Assembly: GCA_029567195.1 (NCBI GenBank)
Contig: JAKQLJ010000017.1
Location: forward strand, 1 to 49,443
Length of the DNA: 49,443 bases
Source of the DNA: a bacterium
GTDB taxonomy: Bacteria; Patescibacteriota; Minisyncoccia; Moranbacterales; UBA2206
Direction: 5' to 3'
Made by a program: the position numbers and the translations under genes. The notes below the pieces were generated by a model. The model ran no database searches. It saw only the letters and a program-made list of their open reading frames with translations, and was not told where the DNA came from. Below, in pieces: positions 7,415-19,376 of this stretch. Within the stretch, counting starts at the first letter, position 1, and each line of letters opens with the position of its first letter.

Positions 7415-8233
7415 ATGGCTGGTAAAAAATCAATCGGCATTTTTGATTCCGGATTTGGCGGACTCAGTGTTATGAAGGGCATTTTGAAAGAATTGCCCCA
7501 ATATGATTATGTTTATCTTGGCGATACCGCCCGAGTGCCTTATGGCACGCGTTCAAAAAATACAATCTACCGATTTACCAGACAGGCGGTGGATTTTTTA
7601 TCACAGAAAAATTGCGGACTTATCATTTTGGCTTGTAACACTGTTTCCAGCGAGGCTTTGTGGAAAATTCAACACGAATATGTTCCTCAAAAACATGGAG
7701 GCGAGAAAGTTCTTGGCGTTCTTATTCCGGCAATAGAGGAGGCGCTGAAAAAAACAAAAAACGGAAAAATAGGCATTATGGCGACGAACGCTACCGTAAA
7801 ATCAAAAGCTTTTTTTAAAAAAACCAAAAAAATTGATTCGCGAATGAAAATTTTTCAGGTGGCTTGTCCGGCTTTAGTGCCGCTGATTGAAGCGGGGAGA
7901 TACAACAGCCCGGAAATGGACGAGGCACTAAGGAAATATTTGAAACTTTTGTCCGGCAAGGAAATAGACACCTTGATTTTGGGCTGCACTCATTATGGAA
8001 TAATTGAGGGAAAGATAAGGAAGATAATCGGCCAGCGCTTAAGTGTAATTTCCCAATCAAAAATAATAGCCGGAAAATTGAAAAATTACCTGGATAGGCA
8101 TCCGGAGATAGAAAAAAGTCTCAGGAAAAATAAACGCCGGGTTTTTTATTCCACCGATCCGACTGATAATTTTGGGAATTTAGGAAGTAAATTTTTAGGG
8201 GAAAAAATAAAAGTGCAGAAAGCACTTTTGTGA
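7415..8233 (+). CDS. murI: Glutamate racemase
   Basis: IGIFDSGFGGLSVMKGI, DTARVPYG, ACNTVSS, LGCTHYGII motifs. Confidence 0.97.
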   Translation: MAGKKSIGIFDSGFGGLSVMKGILKELPQYDYVYLGDTARVPYGTRSKNTIYRFTRQAVDFLSQKNCGLIILACNTVSSEALWKIQHEYVPQKHGGEKVLGVLIPAIEEALKKTKNGKIGIMATNATVKSKAFFKKTKKIDSRMKIFQVACPALVPLIEAGRYNSPEMDEALRKYLKLLSGKEIDTLILGCTHYGIIEGKIRKIIGQRLSVISQSKIIAGKLKNYLDRHPEIEKSLRKNKRRVFYSTDPTDNFGNLGSKFLGEKIKVQKALL

Positions 8234-8243
8234 TATAATCTCG

Positions 8244-8316
8244 TGCGCTTAGCAGGAATTGAACCTGCGACCTTCTGGACCGCAACCAGACGCTCTATCC
8301 ACTGAGCTATAAGCGC
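8244..8316 (-). tRNA. tRNA-Arg (GCG)
   Basis: RC: GCGCTTATAGCTCAGTGGATAGAGCGTCTGGTTGCGGTCCAGAAGGTCGCAGGTTCAATTCCTGCTAAGCGC; acceptor GCGCTTA/TAAGCGC. Confidence 0.92.
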
Positions 8317-8467
8317 TTTTTATTTTTGTAAATCAACGGGATTTATCCGCCTCTGGCAAAATCTTCTGGACCCGTCTGCTTCGCGATTCAACTTATTAAT
8401 GGAATAATTTTAAACTTTATTGTTTATTAATGATATATCAATTAAATAGTTAACTCTTGCTGGCAGG

Positions 8468-8548
8468 CCGCAACCAGACGCTCCCTGCCTGCATGCCTAA
8501 CGGCATGTAAACCGGCAGGCAGGTATCCACTGAGCTATAAGCGCTTTT
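8468..8548 (-). pseudogene. Truncated tRNA-Arg 5' half interrupted by a 40-bp palindrome
   Basis: ccgcaaccagacgctc + [8484-8523 cctgcctgc...gcaggcagg] + tatccactgagctataagcgctttt, identical to the intact tRNA outside the insert. Confidence 0.85.
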
Positions 8549-9843: not shown

Positions 9844-11016
9844 ATGGAAAACGACCAAAAACATCTTAACTATAATGACACTATCAATCTCGGTTCTTAT
9901 TATACACCAGAGGTTATTGTGGATTTGGCTTATTCCATTTTGCAAAAAAATATTCCAAACATTAAATATTTTACAATTTTAGATTCGTCTTGCGGATACG
10001 GTTCATTTTTAGCAAAAAAAGATATTGCAAAAAGATGGGTTGGAGCAGATATTGATCAAGAGGCTATTTCTGAAGCCAAGAAAATAATTGGCGATATTGA
10101 TTATATCCATCTAAATTCACTCTCAAATGTTTGCCGCAAAAATCTTACAATTAGAAATGATGAAAAACTTATAGTCATAGGCAATCCGCCATATAATGAC
10201 ACCACATCCATAATTAGGAATTCTATAAAAGATGTTTCTATCCAAGACAAGATTGATACTGACATAAAAACCAGAGACTTGGGAATGTCGTTTTTGCTTT
10301 CTTACGATAAGCTCAAAGCAGATTATATTTGTGTTTTGCATCCCTTATCGTATCTAATTAAAAAAGCAAATTTTTCGTTACTTTCAAAATTTTCCAGAAA
10401 CTATAAATTAATTGACGGAATAATTATAAGCAGTCATGAGTTTTCTAATACCTCTCGAGGCATGGCCTTTCCCATCCTAGTAGCTTTTTACAAAAGAGAT
10501 CAGAGGGGAATGACTTATGATCATATTCAAAATTATAAATTTAAGGTTAAAGATGATGGCTCTTTCTGTTTGAATGATTTCGACACCATAGTTAATTATG
10601 TCCAAAAATATCCAAATAAAAAATATTTGAATAAAAACGACAAGCCAGTCGCAAAATTTTGGACGCTGAGAGATATAAACGCACTCAAGCGCAATCGTAC
10701 TTTTATTGATTCTGATACCTATAACACCGTTTATGTATTAATGGAAAAACTCCCTTATTATTGTTATATTGATGTTTTCAAGCAATACGCAGATAGGATG
10801 CCATATTTTATTGGAAATTGTGATGTAATAATTGATAACAAAAAATTTAATGAGATAAAAGAATGCTTTGTTGCGCAAAGTATTCACACAAATCCCATTT
10901 TAAAAAATAAATTTAAATTTAGGGAAATTCCTAATGCTAAATTAAAAATAGAAAAATATTTTAAGGAATTATTAGGTAGTAAATTAGGTGAAAAATATGC
11001 CAAAAATTTTAATTAA
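9844..11016 (+). CDS. DNA adenine methyltransferase (type II RM)
   Basis: SAM motif LDSSCGYGSFL and catalytic IGNPPYND. Confidence 0.88.
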   Translation: MENDQKHLNYNDTINLGSYYTPEVIVDLAYSILQKNIPNIKYFTILDSSCGYGSFLAKKDIAKRWVGADIDQEAISEAKKIIGDIDYIHLNSLSNVCRKNLTIRNDEKLIVIGNPPYNDTTSIIRNSIKDVSIQDKIDTDIKTRDLGMSFLLSYDKLKADYICVLHPLSYLIKKANFSLLSKFSRNYKLIDGIIISSHEFSNTSRGMAFPILVAFYKRDQRGMTYDHIQNYKFKVKDDGSFCLNDFDTIVNYVQKYPNKKYLNKNDKPVAKFWTLRDINALKRNRTFIDSDTYNTVYVLMEKLPYYCYIDVFKQYADRMPYFIGNCDVIIDNKKFNEIKECFVAQSIHTNPILKNKFKFREIPNAKLKIEKYFKELLGSKLGEKYAKNFN

Positions 11017-11758
11017 AGAAAGGGAGCGTAAAATTGAAGTGCCAATACTGTTAACTGCTGTTAGCGGAAAAATTCGTGTTAAAAAACGCTCGATTGTGAA
11101 TGAATATGGAACGCCAGTTGCGGTTAGACGAGATGGATTTTCTTTGAACAATTATGTAGAATGGCAAATTGGTTATGATGTTGTTAAGAAAGAAACTGAA
11201 AAGCTTGCGGAGTCATCTTTACCAGACACAGAGTTTATTGGTGCAAACGGGAAGACTAAAGCACTTTATGAATTATCAGAATATATTTGGTATTTTTATA
11301 AATGGAATATTGTGTCAAAAACAGATCTAGAGAATATTATCGATTATCTGAGTTTGATGCCAGGTAATAATTTAATTGATAATAATTCCGAGTTACAAAT
11401 TGATCGTAGCCATCCAACGACCAAAAATATAAACGGATTTGATTTTGAATATACTCAAGTCAAATATCCTCTTCTGATCTATAAATTTAACGGATATGAA
11501 ATTGTCACTGAAATAAAGATTACTGAGAAGCAATATGCTATTGGCACCCAACCCATGTTATATTTATGTTTCCCGATTACAGAGCTAAAATCGGAAACCA
11601 ATTTAGTTGGACGAACTGCCAATGCAAAAGAAATTGCCCATTTTGAAATCTCAGAGAGCAATATTAAAGTGTTTTTGGAGATGTTAAAAATGTTTGGTAT
11701 TTTGTCAAAAAATCACAAACACGACATTCTACAGATTATCAATACGATTATAAATTAG
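10997..11758 (+). CDS. Candidate cognate type II restriction endonuclease
   Basis: Overlaps the MTase 3' end in another frame (ATG at 10997; track uses GTG at 10988); size and position fit an REase; fold not assigned. Confidence 0.55.
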   Translation: MPKILIKERERKIEVPILLTAVSGKIRVKKRSIVNEYGTPVAVRRDGFSLNNYVEWQIGYDVVKKETEKLAESSLPDTEFIGANGKTKALYELSEYIWYFYKWNIVSKTDLENIIDYLSLMPGNNLIDNNSELQIDRSHPTTKNINGFDFEYTQVKYPLLIYKFNGYEIVTEIKITEKQYAIGTQPMLYLCFPITELKSETNLVGRTANAKEIAHFEISESNIKVFLEMLKMFGILSKNHKHDILQIINTIIN

Positions 11759-15142: not shown

Positions 15143-15172
15143 TTGACAAAATCAGAAATAGGTGCTATACTT
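15143..15172 (+). promoter_or_regulatory. Sigma70 promoter (TTGACA-N17-TATACT)
   Basis: ttgacaaaatcagaaataggtgctatact. Confidence 0.8.
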
Positions 15173-15175
15173 CCT

Positions 15176-15495
15176 GCAGTTGGTTTATTATAGCAGAAAG
15201 GAGGTAAAATACAGTGGGCGGATTCTAGCTGAAAAAGCTTCATTAACAGAAAGGATTGTGTAGATGCGGCGATTTTATCGGATTTAGGTTAAGAATGGCT
15301 AAAATGAGCGATTTATTGTTATGATCGCCAGCGTCCGCAAAAGGCAAGGGAGTTGTACTGTTTATTCAAGAAGGCAGGGAGAACACTTTGACACCCTGCA
15401 ACCGCGGGAAAACGCTTGAAACCCGCGGCGTAATATGACAAGGCGCTCGCTGATCTTCCCAAAGAGGACGACACGAGCGCCTCTTTTTTTATCTA
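15176..15495 (+). ncRNA. Structured putative ncRNA (about 320 nt), class unknown
   Basis: Promoter just upstream; nested helices GGCGAT/ATCGCC, GCAGGG/CCCTGC, CCGCGGG/CCCGCGG; no significant ORF; ends in a terminator. Confidence 0.55.
15440..15492 (+). terminator. Rho-independent terminator
   Basis: AAGGCGCTCG...CGAGCGCCTCTTTTTTT. Confidence 0.85.
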
Positions 15496-15627: not shown

Positions 15628-15657
15628 TTGACAAAATTTCAGTCGTTTGCTATACTC
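15628..15657 (+). promoter_or_regulatory. Sigma70 promoter (TTGACA-N17-TATACT)
   Basis: ttgacaaaatttcagtcgtttgctatact; followed by a ~290-nt leader with helices CTGGTT/AACCAG, CTTATC/GATAAG, CCCTCACTT/AAGTGAGGG. Confidence 0.8.
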
Positions 15658-15944
15658 CCAAAGTCAAGCTAAAAGATAGATTCGTCTGGCGCTGGTTATA
15701 AGTAATATATTTTGAACCAGAAATAAAGATGAATCACTTATCTGTTTGATAAGATAAAAAATACGGTGAATATCAGGCCCTTTGACAACTTACCCTCACT
15801 TTTCTTCGCAAATTAGCTTTGTTGGGAGAAGTGAGGGAGTTATATCACATTCAACTTTTACCCGATTTGTAAATAGTTCTAAATTTTTAGAGGGAAAAAC
15901 ATTGGGTTTTTTCAATCAAATCACTCTTGCTTAGGGAGGTTACA

Positions 15945-16256
15945 ATGATCAAGAAACACAAGATCTTTCAAGTAATCCAGGAGGGAGTAATCCCGAATGG
16001 AGGCAGGGTCGAACGCTGGAAAAGCTGCAACGGAGAGTTCCATGTGGACTTTCTGATTGAGCTTTTCTTCGAGGAGAATGGTGAGGTCGCATTTGCCAGG
16101 CAACTTTTAGAAATAGAAGTCGGCCAGTGCGATTGTCAAATCATTCTCAAATACACTTTCCCTTTTTCCCAGGATGAATCCGATGAATTTGACTGGGACG
16201 ATGATCTACTAGCTGCAATGGAGGCTGGTAGATTAGAAAACTTCGCTACTCTCTAA
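15945..16256 (+). CDS. Array ORF A: hypothetical protein, paralogue of ORF B
   Basis: SD agggagg before ATG; shares GG.V.R.K.CNGE.H.DFL pattern with ORF B. Confidence 0.7.
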   Translation: MIKKHKIFQVIQEGVIPNGGRVERWKSCNGEFHVDFLIELFFEENGEVAFARQLLEIEVGQCDCQIILKYTFPFSQDESDEFDWDDDLLAAMEAGRLENFATL

Positions 16257-16290
16257 AAGTTTGTAAATAGTTATAAATTTTTAGAGGGAA
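16237..16290 (+). repeat. Array hairpin element 1
   Basis: AAAACTTCGC then CTCTCTAAAA/TTTTAGAGGG stem. Confidence 0.8.
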
Positions 16291-16341
16291 AAACATTGGG
16301 TTTTTCCGATTGTCCTTTCGCTTTATTATAGGAGGCATACC

Positions 16342-16660
16342 ATGCGCGACTGCTGCTATATAATTTTCGAAACCGTCGAAGAAGGAACCACCCTCGATGG
16401 CGGCGTGGTTTTGCGGTCAAAAGGCTGCAATGGAGAAAATCATATGGATTTTCTTCATACGGTCTGTTATGACCAAGACGGGGGAGTTGAATGGTCCGAT
16501 GAGTTAGCTTATATCAATCGGGGCCGTTGTGATCATGGATGGTTTACTACATCCCGCCGTCTTTGCTGATAACTCCTTCCCGGATGAATATCATTGTCCG
16601 GTCGCACAGCTACCAGCTGGAATGAGGGCTGGTAGATTAAAAAACTTCGCAACTCTCTAA
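16342..16660 (+). pseudogene. Array ORF B: frameshifted paralogue of ORF A
   Basis: Annotated ORF stops at 16569, but a +1 frame continues FADNSFPDEYHCPVAQLPAGMRAGRLKNFATL*, matching the C-terminus of A (EAGRLENFATL*). Confidence 0.65.
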
Positions 16661-16704
16661 GACATCTTTATTTACTAATGTGAGTCGAGATGTCTTAGAG
16701 GGGA
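16641..16704 (+). repeat. Array hairpin element 2
   Basis: AAAACTTCGC then CTCTCTAAGACATCT/AGATGTCTTAGAGGG. Confidence 0.8.
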
Positions 16705-17061
16705 TTTGTTTTCCTCTTGCACTCTGCAAGATTTACCTCTGCACCATTTCTACGTCGATTATTTTTGAAGAAATAATTTAATTAGAAATGGTGCGGGGTG
16801 GGACAAAATTTTTACCTGCGAAGTTTTTATTTTGTTTAAAATCTCATCGAGATGATCTTGTGGAGTCCAAGAGGGAAGCAAATTATTCTCGCAGTAGTTT
16901 TGCTAGTTTCTTCAGAGTAAAAAACTAGCCTACGGCGTAGCTGAAACGTCGTGGAACACGGAATTATTTCGTGGCCGGAAAGATTTCGGGTTTCCTGGGA
17001 ACCTACTTATCTTTTCAGCAAGGATCAGAGAAGGGGAGAACTGGTCTAAATCAGCGATTAT

Positions 17062-17115
17062 AAACTTCGCTTCCCTTAAAAAATTTTTATTTGAAAAGAA
17101 ATTTTTTAAGGGAAA
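17062..17115 (+). repeat. Array hairpin element 3
   Basis: AAACTTCGC then TTCCCTTAAAAAATTT/AAATTTTTTAAGGGAA (16/16 bp). Confidence 0.8.
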
Positions 17116-17151
17116 TAAAAACTAAAACAATCAGACTGCCGTGGAGGGGTT

Positions 17152-17343
17152 ATGGCAGATCAAATCATTCGTATTTCCGGCCAGTATCGTACTTACTCTT
17201 GGACAAGAGGTCTTGCACCTCAACGTCCGGTGCGGTCGCTGGAAGAAGAGGCTCGGAGAAATCCGCAGGCCGTTATCTTCCGCCTTCTCAATGAGGGTCG
17301 TGAAGATGAGGCTGAGAATTTTTTCCAACGCTTCGTCCAGTAA
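17152..17343 (+). CDS. Array ORF D: hypothetical 63-aa protein
   Basis: SD ggaggggtt before ATG; MADQIIRISGQYRTYSWTRGLAPQ... Confidence 0.55.
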   Translation: MADQIIRISGQYRTYSWTRGLAPQRPVRSLEEEARRNPQAVIFRLLNEGREDEAENFFQRFVQ

Positions 17344-17465
17344 GGCCACTGCTTATCCCATAGCAGAATATAAAATGGGCGTAATACTCCGGGGAAGCAC
17401 CGGGGCGCGAGATGCCTGTCTCCCGCGTACAATCAAGTTTTAGCGGACAGGAAAAATGAGAGTGA

Positions 17466-17520
17466 TAAAAACTTCGCACTCTCTAAAAGATTATTTTTCT
17501 AAGTAATTTTTTAGAGGGAA
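17466..17520 (+). repeat. Array hairpin element 4
   Basis: AAAACTTCGC then CTCTCTAAAAGATTA/TAATTTTTTAGAGGG. Confidence 0.8.
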
Positions 17521-17580
17521 AAAACTTCGCAAATGATTTGCGGGGTTTTTCATTCCAAAACAATTTAAAGGGAGTGAGAC

Positions 17581-17982
17581 ATGCCAATTATCGAACGTTA
17601 TGGAGAAAGAACACCGTGGCTGGAATCCAAGCATATAGAGGAGGAAAAAATGAAAAAAGTGTTGTGGTTTTCAAGGCATGAGTTGTCTCCGGAGCAGTTG
17701 GCCGATCTCAAGCGGATTTTTGGGGAGGTTGAAGTAAATCAGATCAACCAAACCATCAATCACGCCTCTGAGATCAAGGCAGACATCGAAGCAGCCGATG
17801 TTATCGCCATTGTCGCCCCGCTGCCTCTCCAGCAGGAATTCTTGCAACTGTCTGGAGTGAAGCCTGTAATATTCTGCAAGAACGCCCGTATTGTCGACCC
17901 GGTGGACAATACTAAGGTAACGTTCCAGCACACCGGGTGGTTCCGGATTAAGGAGATAAAAGTGGTTTTTGAGCCGCTCTAA
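17581..17982 (+). CDS. Array ORF E: hypothetical protein (133 aa)
   Basis: SD aagggagtgagac before ATG; alternative SD gaggaaaaa before internal ATG (MKKVLWFSRHELSPEQ). Confidence 0.65.
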   Translation: MPIIERYGERTPWLESKHIEEEKMKKVLWFSRHELSPEQLADLKRIFGEVEVNQINQTINHASEIKADIEAADVIAIVAPLPLQQEFLQLSGVKPVIFCKNARIVDPVDNTKVTFQHTGWFRIKEIKVVFEPL

Positions 17983-18009
17983 TCCTGAAACGGACCAAGA
18001 CGGAGAGTG

Positions 18010-18065
18010 TAAAAACTTCGCTCTCCTATAAAAATATTCTTTGAGAAGAATATTTTTATAGGAGC
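18010..18065 (+). repeat. Array hairpin element 5
   Basis: AAAACTTCGC then CTCCTATAAAAATATTC/GAATATTTTTATAGGAG (17/17 bp). Confidence 0.85.
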
Positions 18066-18073
18066 AGTGGGAT

Positions 18074-18379
18074 ATGGCAGTGGTTTCCACGCATACCCGT
18101 GGTGAGAGATCAAAAAAAGAGGCACACATGCCAGTTTATGAAGGTGGTGATATTCCGATGAATCATTGTGAACAAAACGAAGAACCCAAAAATAAGGAAA
18201 AAGAAATGGAAGAAAAAAAGAGTTCATTGCTGGTAATTAGAGGAATTGTTGTAGTTGCAGAGAGTGGCCGCGGTGCCGAGGAACTTATGCAGTCGGCACT
18301 CGTGCGTTTGGCAAAAATCTTAACAGAAGGAGAAAGGAATGAAAAAGAAAAAAGTTCTCAAGCCCCGCCTCCCGCGTGA
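18074..18379 (+). CDS. Array ORF F: hypothetical protein (101 aa)
   Basis: The 3' arm of hairpin 5 (TAGGAG) lies at SD distance from the ATG. Confidence 0.5.
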   Translation: MAVVSTHTRGERSKKEAHMPVYEGGDIPMNHCEQNEEPKNKEKEMEEKKSSLLVIRGIVVVAESGRGAEELMQSALVRLAKILTEGERNEKEKSSQAPPPA

Positions 18380-18470
18380 GGCGCAGGAAGTGCTTCGCCA
18401 CCGCGGCGGAGCACATAGCCAGAACGGATACGACCACGCCAAAGAAAGGAGAAAGAATAAGGTGCGGTGA
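18339..18470 (+). CDS. Array ORF F2: basic 43-aa protein, not in the ORF track
   Basis: SD gaaggagaaagga before ATG; MKKKKVLKPRLPREAQEVLRHRGGAHSQNGYDHAKERRKNKVR*. Confidence 0.5.
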   Translation: MKKKKVLKPRLPREAQEVLRHRGGAHSQNGYDHAKERRKNKVR

Positions 18471-18490
18471 AGAAAGTGGAGGGCACAATA

Positions 18491-18556
18491 AAAACTTCGC
18501 GCTCTCTAAAAGATAATATCAAAATAAAAATGATTAATATTATTTTTTAGAGGGAA
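18491..18556 (+). repeat. Array hairpin element 6
   Basis: AAAACTTCGC then CTCTCTAAAAGATAATAT/ATATTATTTTTTAGAGGG. Confidence 0.8.
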
Positions 18557-18674
18557 AATATTTCATCAATTAACAACGAAAACGTAAAAGGAGAGAAGCA
18601 TGTATACGGTAAAAGACAATGGGTTGCGTCACGGATTGCTTCATAATTCCGGTCAAGGACAACTGATTTAGGAA

Positions 18675-19136
18675 ATGGAAGAAAAGTTCATGAATACTGG
18701 CGAGGAACAAGTTTTCATAACGCACATTGAAGAATCCGAGGGTTTTATGGAACCTAAAGACATTTACGAGGTGACTTGCACCCTTAAAGTACGGGATGAA
18801 GTGAATAGGGTGGGTTATTGGACATATCGGAAAAACAAATTTACTAACAGGAGGCAAGCCATGAGATTCAAAGGTAATCCGTTCCAAAAGACCAGCTACA
18901 ACGATTCAAAAACTCCCCGTAATCTACTCGAAGTTGTTGCTGTTGCCGCTCGTGATCTCAAGCTCGATCTGGTTAATGGTTGCTGTCACAACATCTGGCT
19001 AGAAGCTCGCTCTCGCTCTGCCGAAAGGCGCATCCTCGCTCATGCTGAAACTCTCTCGGAAAAAGATCCTCGCATTCTCGCTACAGTTGAGTCGTTCAAA
19101 ATCGCTCTCCGCTCATATGTTTGTTCCTTCCGTTAA
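18675..19136 (+). CDS. Array ORF G: hypothetical protein (153 aa)
   Basis: Longest ORF of the array; preceded by a 23-aa leader ORF at 18600 with its own SD. Confidence 0.6.
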   Translation: MEEKFMNTGEEQVFITHIEESEGFMEPKDIYEVTCTLKVRDEVNRVGYWTYRKNKFTNRRQAMRFKGNPFQKTSYNDSKTPRNLLEVVAVAARDLKLDLVNGCCHNIWLEARSRSAERRILAHAETLSEKDPRILATVESFKIALRSYVCSFR

Positions 19137-19203
19137 TTCACCTCAAAGGCTTATGCTTGAGCCTAGTAATAGAATCAAGCAACGTGAAAAAATTTCGCAA
19201 TCA

Positions 19204-19257
19204 AAAAACTTCGTGCTCTCTAAAATAATTTTTATTTAAGAATTATTTTAGAGGGAA
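19204..19257 (+). repeat. Array hairpin element 7
   Basis: AAAAACTTCGTG then CTCTCTAAAATAATT/AATTATTTTAGAGGG. Confidence 0.8.
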
Positions 19258-19376
19258 TTTGAAAAAACAACCGAAGTCTATGTTCAAATTTTTTTTGGGG
19301 CCAATTAGATAAAATATTTTTATAAAAAAATCGCCAAAAGTTTCTTATTTGGCGATTTTGTGTTATAATAAAACAA

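Follow-up and report, generated by a model that had tools for sequence, protein, structure and literature searches.

A covarying RNA hairpin family in TrmB-linked arrays of orphan small genes in Patescibacteria

The stretch of DNA analysed here (the window; 49,443 nucleotides, contig 16 of an 829-kb metagenome assembly) carries, downstream of a TrmB-family regulator gene, an array of small orphan open reading frames (ORFs) and noncoding units that are separated by seven hairpin elements, e1 to e7. The array extends from its promoter (15628) to the end of e7 (19255). The structure of these elements acts as RNA, and the elements are the local form of an RNA family that spans the Paceibacteria and is missing from Rfam. 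Within one long transcript, the hairpin probably marks or prepares the message of each gene. The closest named relatives at the array locus are Moranbacteria, within the Patescibacteria, a large and mostly uncultured group with many small orphan proteins for which no handle of any kind exists. A covarying RNA that marks a class-wide locus provides such a handle, both on the small proteins of a shared pool and on a common regulator.

A preliminary description of the window had pointed to at least seven elements, each a conserved motif followed by a long stem, and the seven that it listed were all found where it had placed them, the motif of e7 (AAACTTCGTG) with a single-base change from the common form AAACTTCGC. 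The exact AAACTTCGC occurs eight times in the window, always within the array, as compared with 0.77 copies expected from shuffled sequences; six copies stand at the heads of e1 to e6, one lies at 17522 and one is reversed at 16818-16826. Stems measure 18-22 bp in every element, with folding energies of -17 to -31 kcal/mol (z -5.2 to -8.4). The partial element e0, which has lost its 5′ half, belongs to a 51-base repeat that is 94% identical to e1. None of the long stems of e1-e7 is among the listed intrinsic terminators; their 3′ flanks are mainly A-rich and have no U-tract. Directly 3′ of e4, at 17520-17550, there is a second hairpin, AAAAACTTCGCAAA-TGA-TTTGCGGGGTTTTT, whose stem includes the AAACTTCGC motif and which has a T-run at its end. 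A reading of the motif as a transfer-messenger RNA tag (KNFAL in one frame) was rejected, the organism's own tag being ANFITKAKTAIAQAFAPSFAPALA and the frame of the motif varying by unit.

That complementarity is kept while the stem sequence changes, as the preliminary description had claimed, is borne out by several comparisons. In e1-e7, 98.4% of stem cells pair, a level that falls to a mean of 77% when the 3′ arms are swapped between elements (0 of 2000 swaps as high), and the stems contain 13 G.U pairs but no A.C. Thirteen elements selected by the motif are 98.3% paired, with 52 changes on both sides of a pair vs 12 in shuffled sets, and show 30 G.U vs 1 A.C on the + strand. Extending the set to 22 elements from 8 genomes leaves 95.4% of cells paired and 17 of the 18 pairs varying on both sides; covariation is strong, with a score of 0.658 vs 0.244 for shuffled and at most 0.225 for slid alignments, though this set is biased towards pairing, since many of its members were picked up as hairpins; the 13 motif-selected elements agree with it. 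The larger set has 61 G.U vs 5 A.C on the coding strand, a ratio that is partly built in because the hairpin finder accepted G.U. G.U pairs are retained where selection acts on an RNA structure, and on the opposite DNA strand they turn into A.C mismatches; the fold is therefore important in the transcript, or else in single-stranded DNA with the sense of the transcript.

In Rfam, the window gave tRNAs only, and the array together with four relatives yielded nothing credible even at permissive E-values; the preliminary description had likewise recognised no described family. The covariance-model search that it had proposed did return copies outside this locus. A model built from e1-e7 picks up the element in several genomes from the organism's family, and a 22-sequence model has matches in 37 of 387 class genomes (35 of 297 genera), the weakest of which look spurious while many good ones lie several per contig. 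In the organism's own genome, all matches to the 22-sequence model fall within this array. The general form of the module is a short stem, P1 (e.g. GGAGGCAAGCA/TGCTTGCCTCC), which abuts or overlaps a second stem, P2 (e.g. CTCTTTCAGAGATTT/AAATTTCTGAAAGGG), often followed by GTTCTTT. In 24/36 class-wide modules P1 lies above the 95th percentile of shuffled sequences, the two stems often compete for the same CTCTC bases, and the box G[TC]TCTTT is found 3′ of P2 in 17/35 modules, with 0.63 expected and 2 in an upstream control. From the end of P2 to the next start codon the median distance is 41 nt. In the window form, only a variable stem is left of P1, with AAAACTTCG placed inside its loop or next to it; the P1 loops of e4, e5 and e6 include this sequence or run into it.

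P1-P2-like modules also lie outside any TrmB array, at 8836-12029 of L149 (G138; three seen by eye, one by scan), with a 195-amino-acid (aa) member of PHROG family 4652 on one side and a helicase-like protein on the other. Further repeated noncoding stretches inside arrays (L031 ~2885-2760 and 1195-1080 on the - strand, L033 5640-5710, L034 8550-8615; e.g. ACCGTCCAACCAATGACG... and AATAAACGGGGA.ACC...) resemble other structured RNAs.

At the 5′ end of the array, the single promoter proposed in the preliminary description was confirmed, and the leader behind it holds a box of the type found in ribosomal RNA (rRNA) operons (rrn), boxA, with a hairpin directly 3′ of it (15780-15840: -25.5 kcal/mol, z -4.9). 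The same boxA-then-hairpin arrangement recurs in arrays L033, L038 and L042. As the organism's own 16S is absent from the assembly, the boxA matrix was built from 14 rrn-leader boxA sites of related genomes, whose leaders contain GAACTTTGACAATTTAA and variants (sites chosen by eye). GCCCTTTGACAACTTA has the top matrix score of the whole 49-kb contig, and the leader sites of nine other arrays rank first in the same way; the other arrays, mostly distant ones, show no such site. Taken singly, these matches are weak, being equalled by 2-11% of random windows (0.6% for the window studied here). The leader boxA recurs in 7/7 near relatives tested.

Factors that could act on such signals are encoded widely. 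Of 13 genomes searched, that of the organism itself included, 12 have a NusB gene and 12 a gene for RNase III, which the organism itself also encodes, and in most of them the two genes are adjacent. The RNA-binding domain of Rho was found in 0/13, compared with 9/14 control genomes, so protection from Rho is unlikely to be the purpose of the signals; most of the 13 Rho-negative genomes keep rrn boxA and NusB. In E. coli, the rrn complex is recruited by boxA, which is both necessary and sufficient for this, and the leader-trailer helices are cut by RNase III (PMC10250234).

We tentatively propose, at a little below even chances, that the array is read as a single transcript handled partly like an rRNA precursor, with intercistronic modules that mature or insulate the cistrons and with RNase III as the likeliest enzyme. 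The array would be an operon for small orphan proteins, each element forming a structured part of its messenger RNA (mRNA). The leader boxA and hairpin would be predicted to recruit NusB and S10 to the polymerase. Between cistrons, usually tens of bases before the next Shine-Dalgarno (SD) site, the abutting hairpins P1 and P2 would form, and P2 may be cut or bound as a duplex, for which RNase III is the candidate; such processing could give each small message its own hairpin-protected end, in the manner of the RNase III sites of the phage T7 early transcript. The duplex of about two helical turns that this calls for is present between the cistrons as the near-perfect P2, and RNase III is encoded. 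At the RNA level, covariation, G.U bias, the position ahead of ORFs and an uncatalogued family all support what the preliminary description had put forward as one option, a polycistron with a repeated RNA processing or regulatory module.

Several observations weigh against this proposal. The elements e1-e7 have no downstream GTTCTTT box, leaving the window with a boxA in the leader only. Distances from P2 to the start codon are spread over 3-137 nt, partly as a result of automatic start calls. Positions within the stem are conserved, including a recurrent G.U, which suggests a specific binder, whereas RNase III needs none. In the window, G033 and G010, no clear ORF lies downstream of the last element (after e7, no convincing ORF was seen up to the next operon), so not every element can be the leader of a following ORF. 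Finally, most P2 examples beyond the motif set came from hairpin searching.

It is rather doubtful, taken as a whole, that TrmB drives fast-changing tiny orphan proteins whose cistrons each receive rRNA-style handling by way of two competing hairpins, accompanied in many cases by boxA. If true, however, this would be a new operon architecture, going beyond a variation on known terminators, attenuators or integrons. The covarying RNA also hints that rRNA-type boxA may be put to use in mRNA where Rho was not found, which makes the role of boxA without Rho directly testable.

Among known systems, the boxB-boxA-boxC signals of rrn operons (NusB-S10) are matched by the array in a leader boxA that is very like the rrn boxA of relatives, in the hairpin beside it and in the presence of NusB and RNase III genes. 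In contrast to rrn, the array is an mRNA of orphan small ORFs without rRNA, its modules are repeated between cistrons, boxA is absent after e1-e7, and Rho was not found. The early region of phage T7 has small genes in a run, hairpins between cistrons that are RNase III sites, and one strong promoter. The array shares the run of small genes, the intercistronic hairpins and the one promoter; it is chromosomal, however, and its perfect 18-22 bp stems are overlapped by P1. Three exact element patterns have no match in IMG/VR, and a viral origin was rejected.

The elements could alternatively be antitermination or elongation signals, each P1-P2 (and boxA where present) modifying the polymerase, like rrn nut or HK022 put, for read-through of a long operon that is structured and little translated. 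We regard this as unlikely. The rrn-type leader boxA with its immediate hairpin, the boxA-like box 3′ of P2 and the presence of NusB would fit, as would two adjacent stem-loops of ~60-70 nt: put RNA, part of an early transcript, likewise consists of two adjacent stem-loops of ~70 nt (PMC9378689), and the P1-P2 pair is found class-wide. Unlike put, however, the module of the array differs in sequence, repeats per cistron and was not found in viral contigs. Repetition also argues against antitermination in general, as put acts over 10 kb (PMC9378689) and one site would suffice. Rho was not found, intrinsic terminators to be read through are few, and the missing boxA after e1-e7 counts against this explanation as well.

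A translational switch, in which the P1/P2 overlap gives mutually exclusive folds that either gate the ribosome-binding site of the following ORF or tie that site to translation of the preceding one, is quite unlikely. Stems do compete with P2 for shared bases in e4, e5, e6 and L042, and the 3′ arm is itself an SD-like stretch in L031 (AAAGGAG) and e5. In most units, however, the SD lies well outside P2, P2, at -17 to -31 kcal/mol, by itself dominates the fold, and several elements of the family have a weak P1, with 8/18 above the 95th percentile. Less likely again are plain mRNA-stabilising hairpins that were spread by duplication and have no specific factor. Long A+T-rich hairpins at cistron ends are common stabilisers, but here the flanking motif, the stem positions and the order P1-P2-boxA are conserved across many families.

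Integron-like cassettes, with the hairpins as single-strand recombination sites at which a recombinase exchanges units, are very improbable and were rejected. Like an attC array, the locus has small ORFs, one hairpin per unit, a single promoter and an ORF pool that is differently combined between genera, and a leader module sits inside unit 3 while e0 and e1 are duplicates; yet RYYYAAC or GTTRRRY boxes are missing within 30 nt of any of e1-e7, 0/17 genomes have an IntI match (TIGR02249) above the 265-bit cut-off (best 132.8 bits, sub-cut-off matches occurring in control genomes too, as expected of general tyrosine recombinases), the same 203-212-aa ORF is preceded by the module in two families (G020 and G160), and structure is kept on the sense strand, the bottom strand being unable to fold as well because sense-strand G.U far exceed A.C (30:1). 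The "exchangeable cassette array" of the preliminary description holds loosely, in that genera share a pool of small ORFs; its other part, recombination at the hairpins, finds no support.

The setting of the array recurs. The locus pattern is a TrmB regulator, a strong promoter, a leader with boxA and hairpin, and orphan small proteins drawn from a shared, reshuffled pool: many of the TrmB relatives in Patescibacteria have, some hundreds of bases downstream, a TTGACA/TATAAT promoter and then arrays of small ORFs. Copies that are 40-44% identical to the TrmB protein of the window sit 5′ of the arrays in L031, L032 and L033. The TrmB domain of the 248-aa protein scores 56.6 bits (Pfam cut-off 25.6), and its gene is the sole TrmB match of its genome. 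A literature search that was thin on subscription journals found no paper on TrmB in Patescibacteria or on such RNAs in Parcubacteria.

Shared ORFs include the basic RHRGG family, to which the second ORF of unit 6 belongs, in six arrays, and a 203-212-aa zinc-ribbon protein in arrays G020, L042 and G160. Unit 1 has a relative in the TrmB array of another family, L153 (BLASTP E=6e-10). The protein of unit 5 is 77% identical to a relative in array G033, of another genus, and is coding since the differences fall at codon positions 1/2/3 as 18/16/44; three viral contigs of IMG/VR encode distant relatives of it, the phage collection none, while the basic 43-aa protein of unit 6 has no confirmed viral relative. 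Only units 1 and 2 are duplicates of each other, so the array is not a series of decayed copies of one gene. The preliminary picture of one ORF or noncoding unit between successive elements holds with corrections: e0 has to be added, the reading frame of unit 2 is broken 5′ of its element, and unit 3 (16703-17059) has no + strand ORF of at least 60 aa and contains an RNA module, whose loop GCGAAGTTTTT is antisense to AAAAACTTCGC (11 nt). In L034, at 7900-8530 (G020), a pair of repeats that by eye looks like the template and variable repeat of a diversity-generating retroelement lies just 5′ of a hairpin element and small-ORF array.

Table 1. Features of the array and its immediate upstream region (window coordinates)
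Feature	Position	Strand	Evidence or remark
TrmB-family transcriptional regulator, 248 aa	14311..15057	+	Pfam PF01978 E=2.4e-15
Separate short transcript between TrmB and array	15143..15492	+	own promoter 15143-15171
Array promoter, TTGACA-17-TATACT, TG before -10	15628..15656	+	11/12 matches
rrn-type boxA GCCCTTTGACAACTTA in leader	15777..15792	+	boxA matrix
Leader hairpin CCCTCACTTTT../..AGAAGTGAGGG	15793..15837	+	directly 3′ of boxA
e0, 3′ half of an element, 5′ half lost	15866-15894	+	before unit 1
Unit 1 ORF, 103 aa, orphan	15945..16256	+	no Pfam or PHROG match
e1	16237..16288, stem 16249-16288	+	fold
Unit 2 ORF, 75 aa	16342..16569	+	unit 1 relative, E=1e-15
e2	16640..16702, stem 16653-16702	+	fold
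Unit 3, hairpin 16737-16798 and module ACAAAATTTTTACCTGCGAAGTTTTTATTTTG	16737..16875	+	matches leaders of G033 and G010 arrays
e3	17060..17114, stem 17071-17114	+	fold
Unit 4 ORF, 63 aa, orphan	17152..17343	+	ORF list, Pfam search
e4	17467..17518, stem 17479-17518	+	fold; alternative upstream stem GAGAGTG(..AAAAACTTCG)CACTCTC
Unit 5 ORF, 110 aa (MKKVLWFSRH...)	17650..17982	+	codon-position comparison
e5	18011..18064, stem 18023-18064	+	fold; alternative upstream stem GGAGAGTG../..CGCTCTCC
Unit 6 ORF, 101 aa, orphan	18074..18379	+	ORF list, Pfam search
Unit 6 second ORF, basic, 43 aa (RLPREAQEVLRHRGGAH)	18339..18470	+	family in 6 arrays
e6	18490..18554, stem 18502-18554	+	fold; upstream stem GGAGGGC/GCTCTCT
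Unit 7 ORF, 153 aa	18675..19136	+	23-codon ORF with own SD precedes at 18600
e7, last of the array	19204..19255, stem 19216-19255	+	fold

Upstream of the array, the gene order is a restriction-modification pair, a large surface-type protein and the TrmB-family regulator. The pair, at 9844-11758, consists of a DNA methylase that adjoins an R.Pab1-family restriction endonuclease (Pfam E=1e-43) and is likely to be a restriction-modification system. In the gap before the array, a separate short transcript has a G+C-rich hairpin and a T-run near 15450-15490, and it contains a minimal ORF, GTG GGC GGA TTC TAG (MGGF*), at 15214-15228, preceded by GGAGG. In the TrmB-array gaps of L033, L038, L040, L052, L086, L110, L031 and L032 there is also a minimal ORF after a strong SD, usually on the opposite strand, and the mini-peptides are mostly MGD*, MGDL*, MGDD*, MGDEG*, MGDAK*, MGG* and MGGC*. 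Minimal ORFs starting with MG were seen at 13/33 loci vs 5/269 random 700-nt windows.

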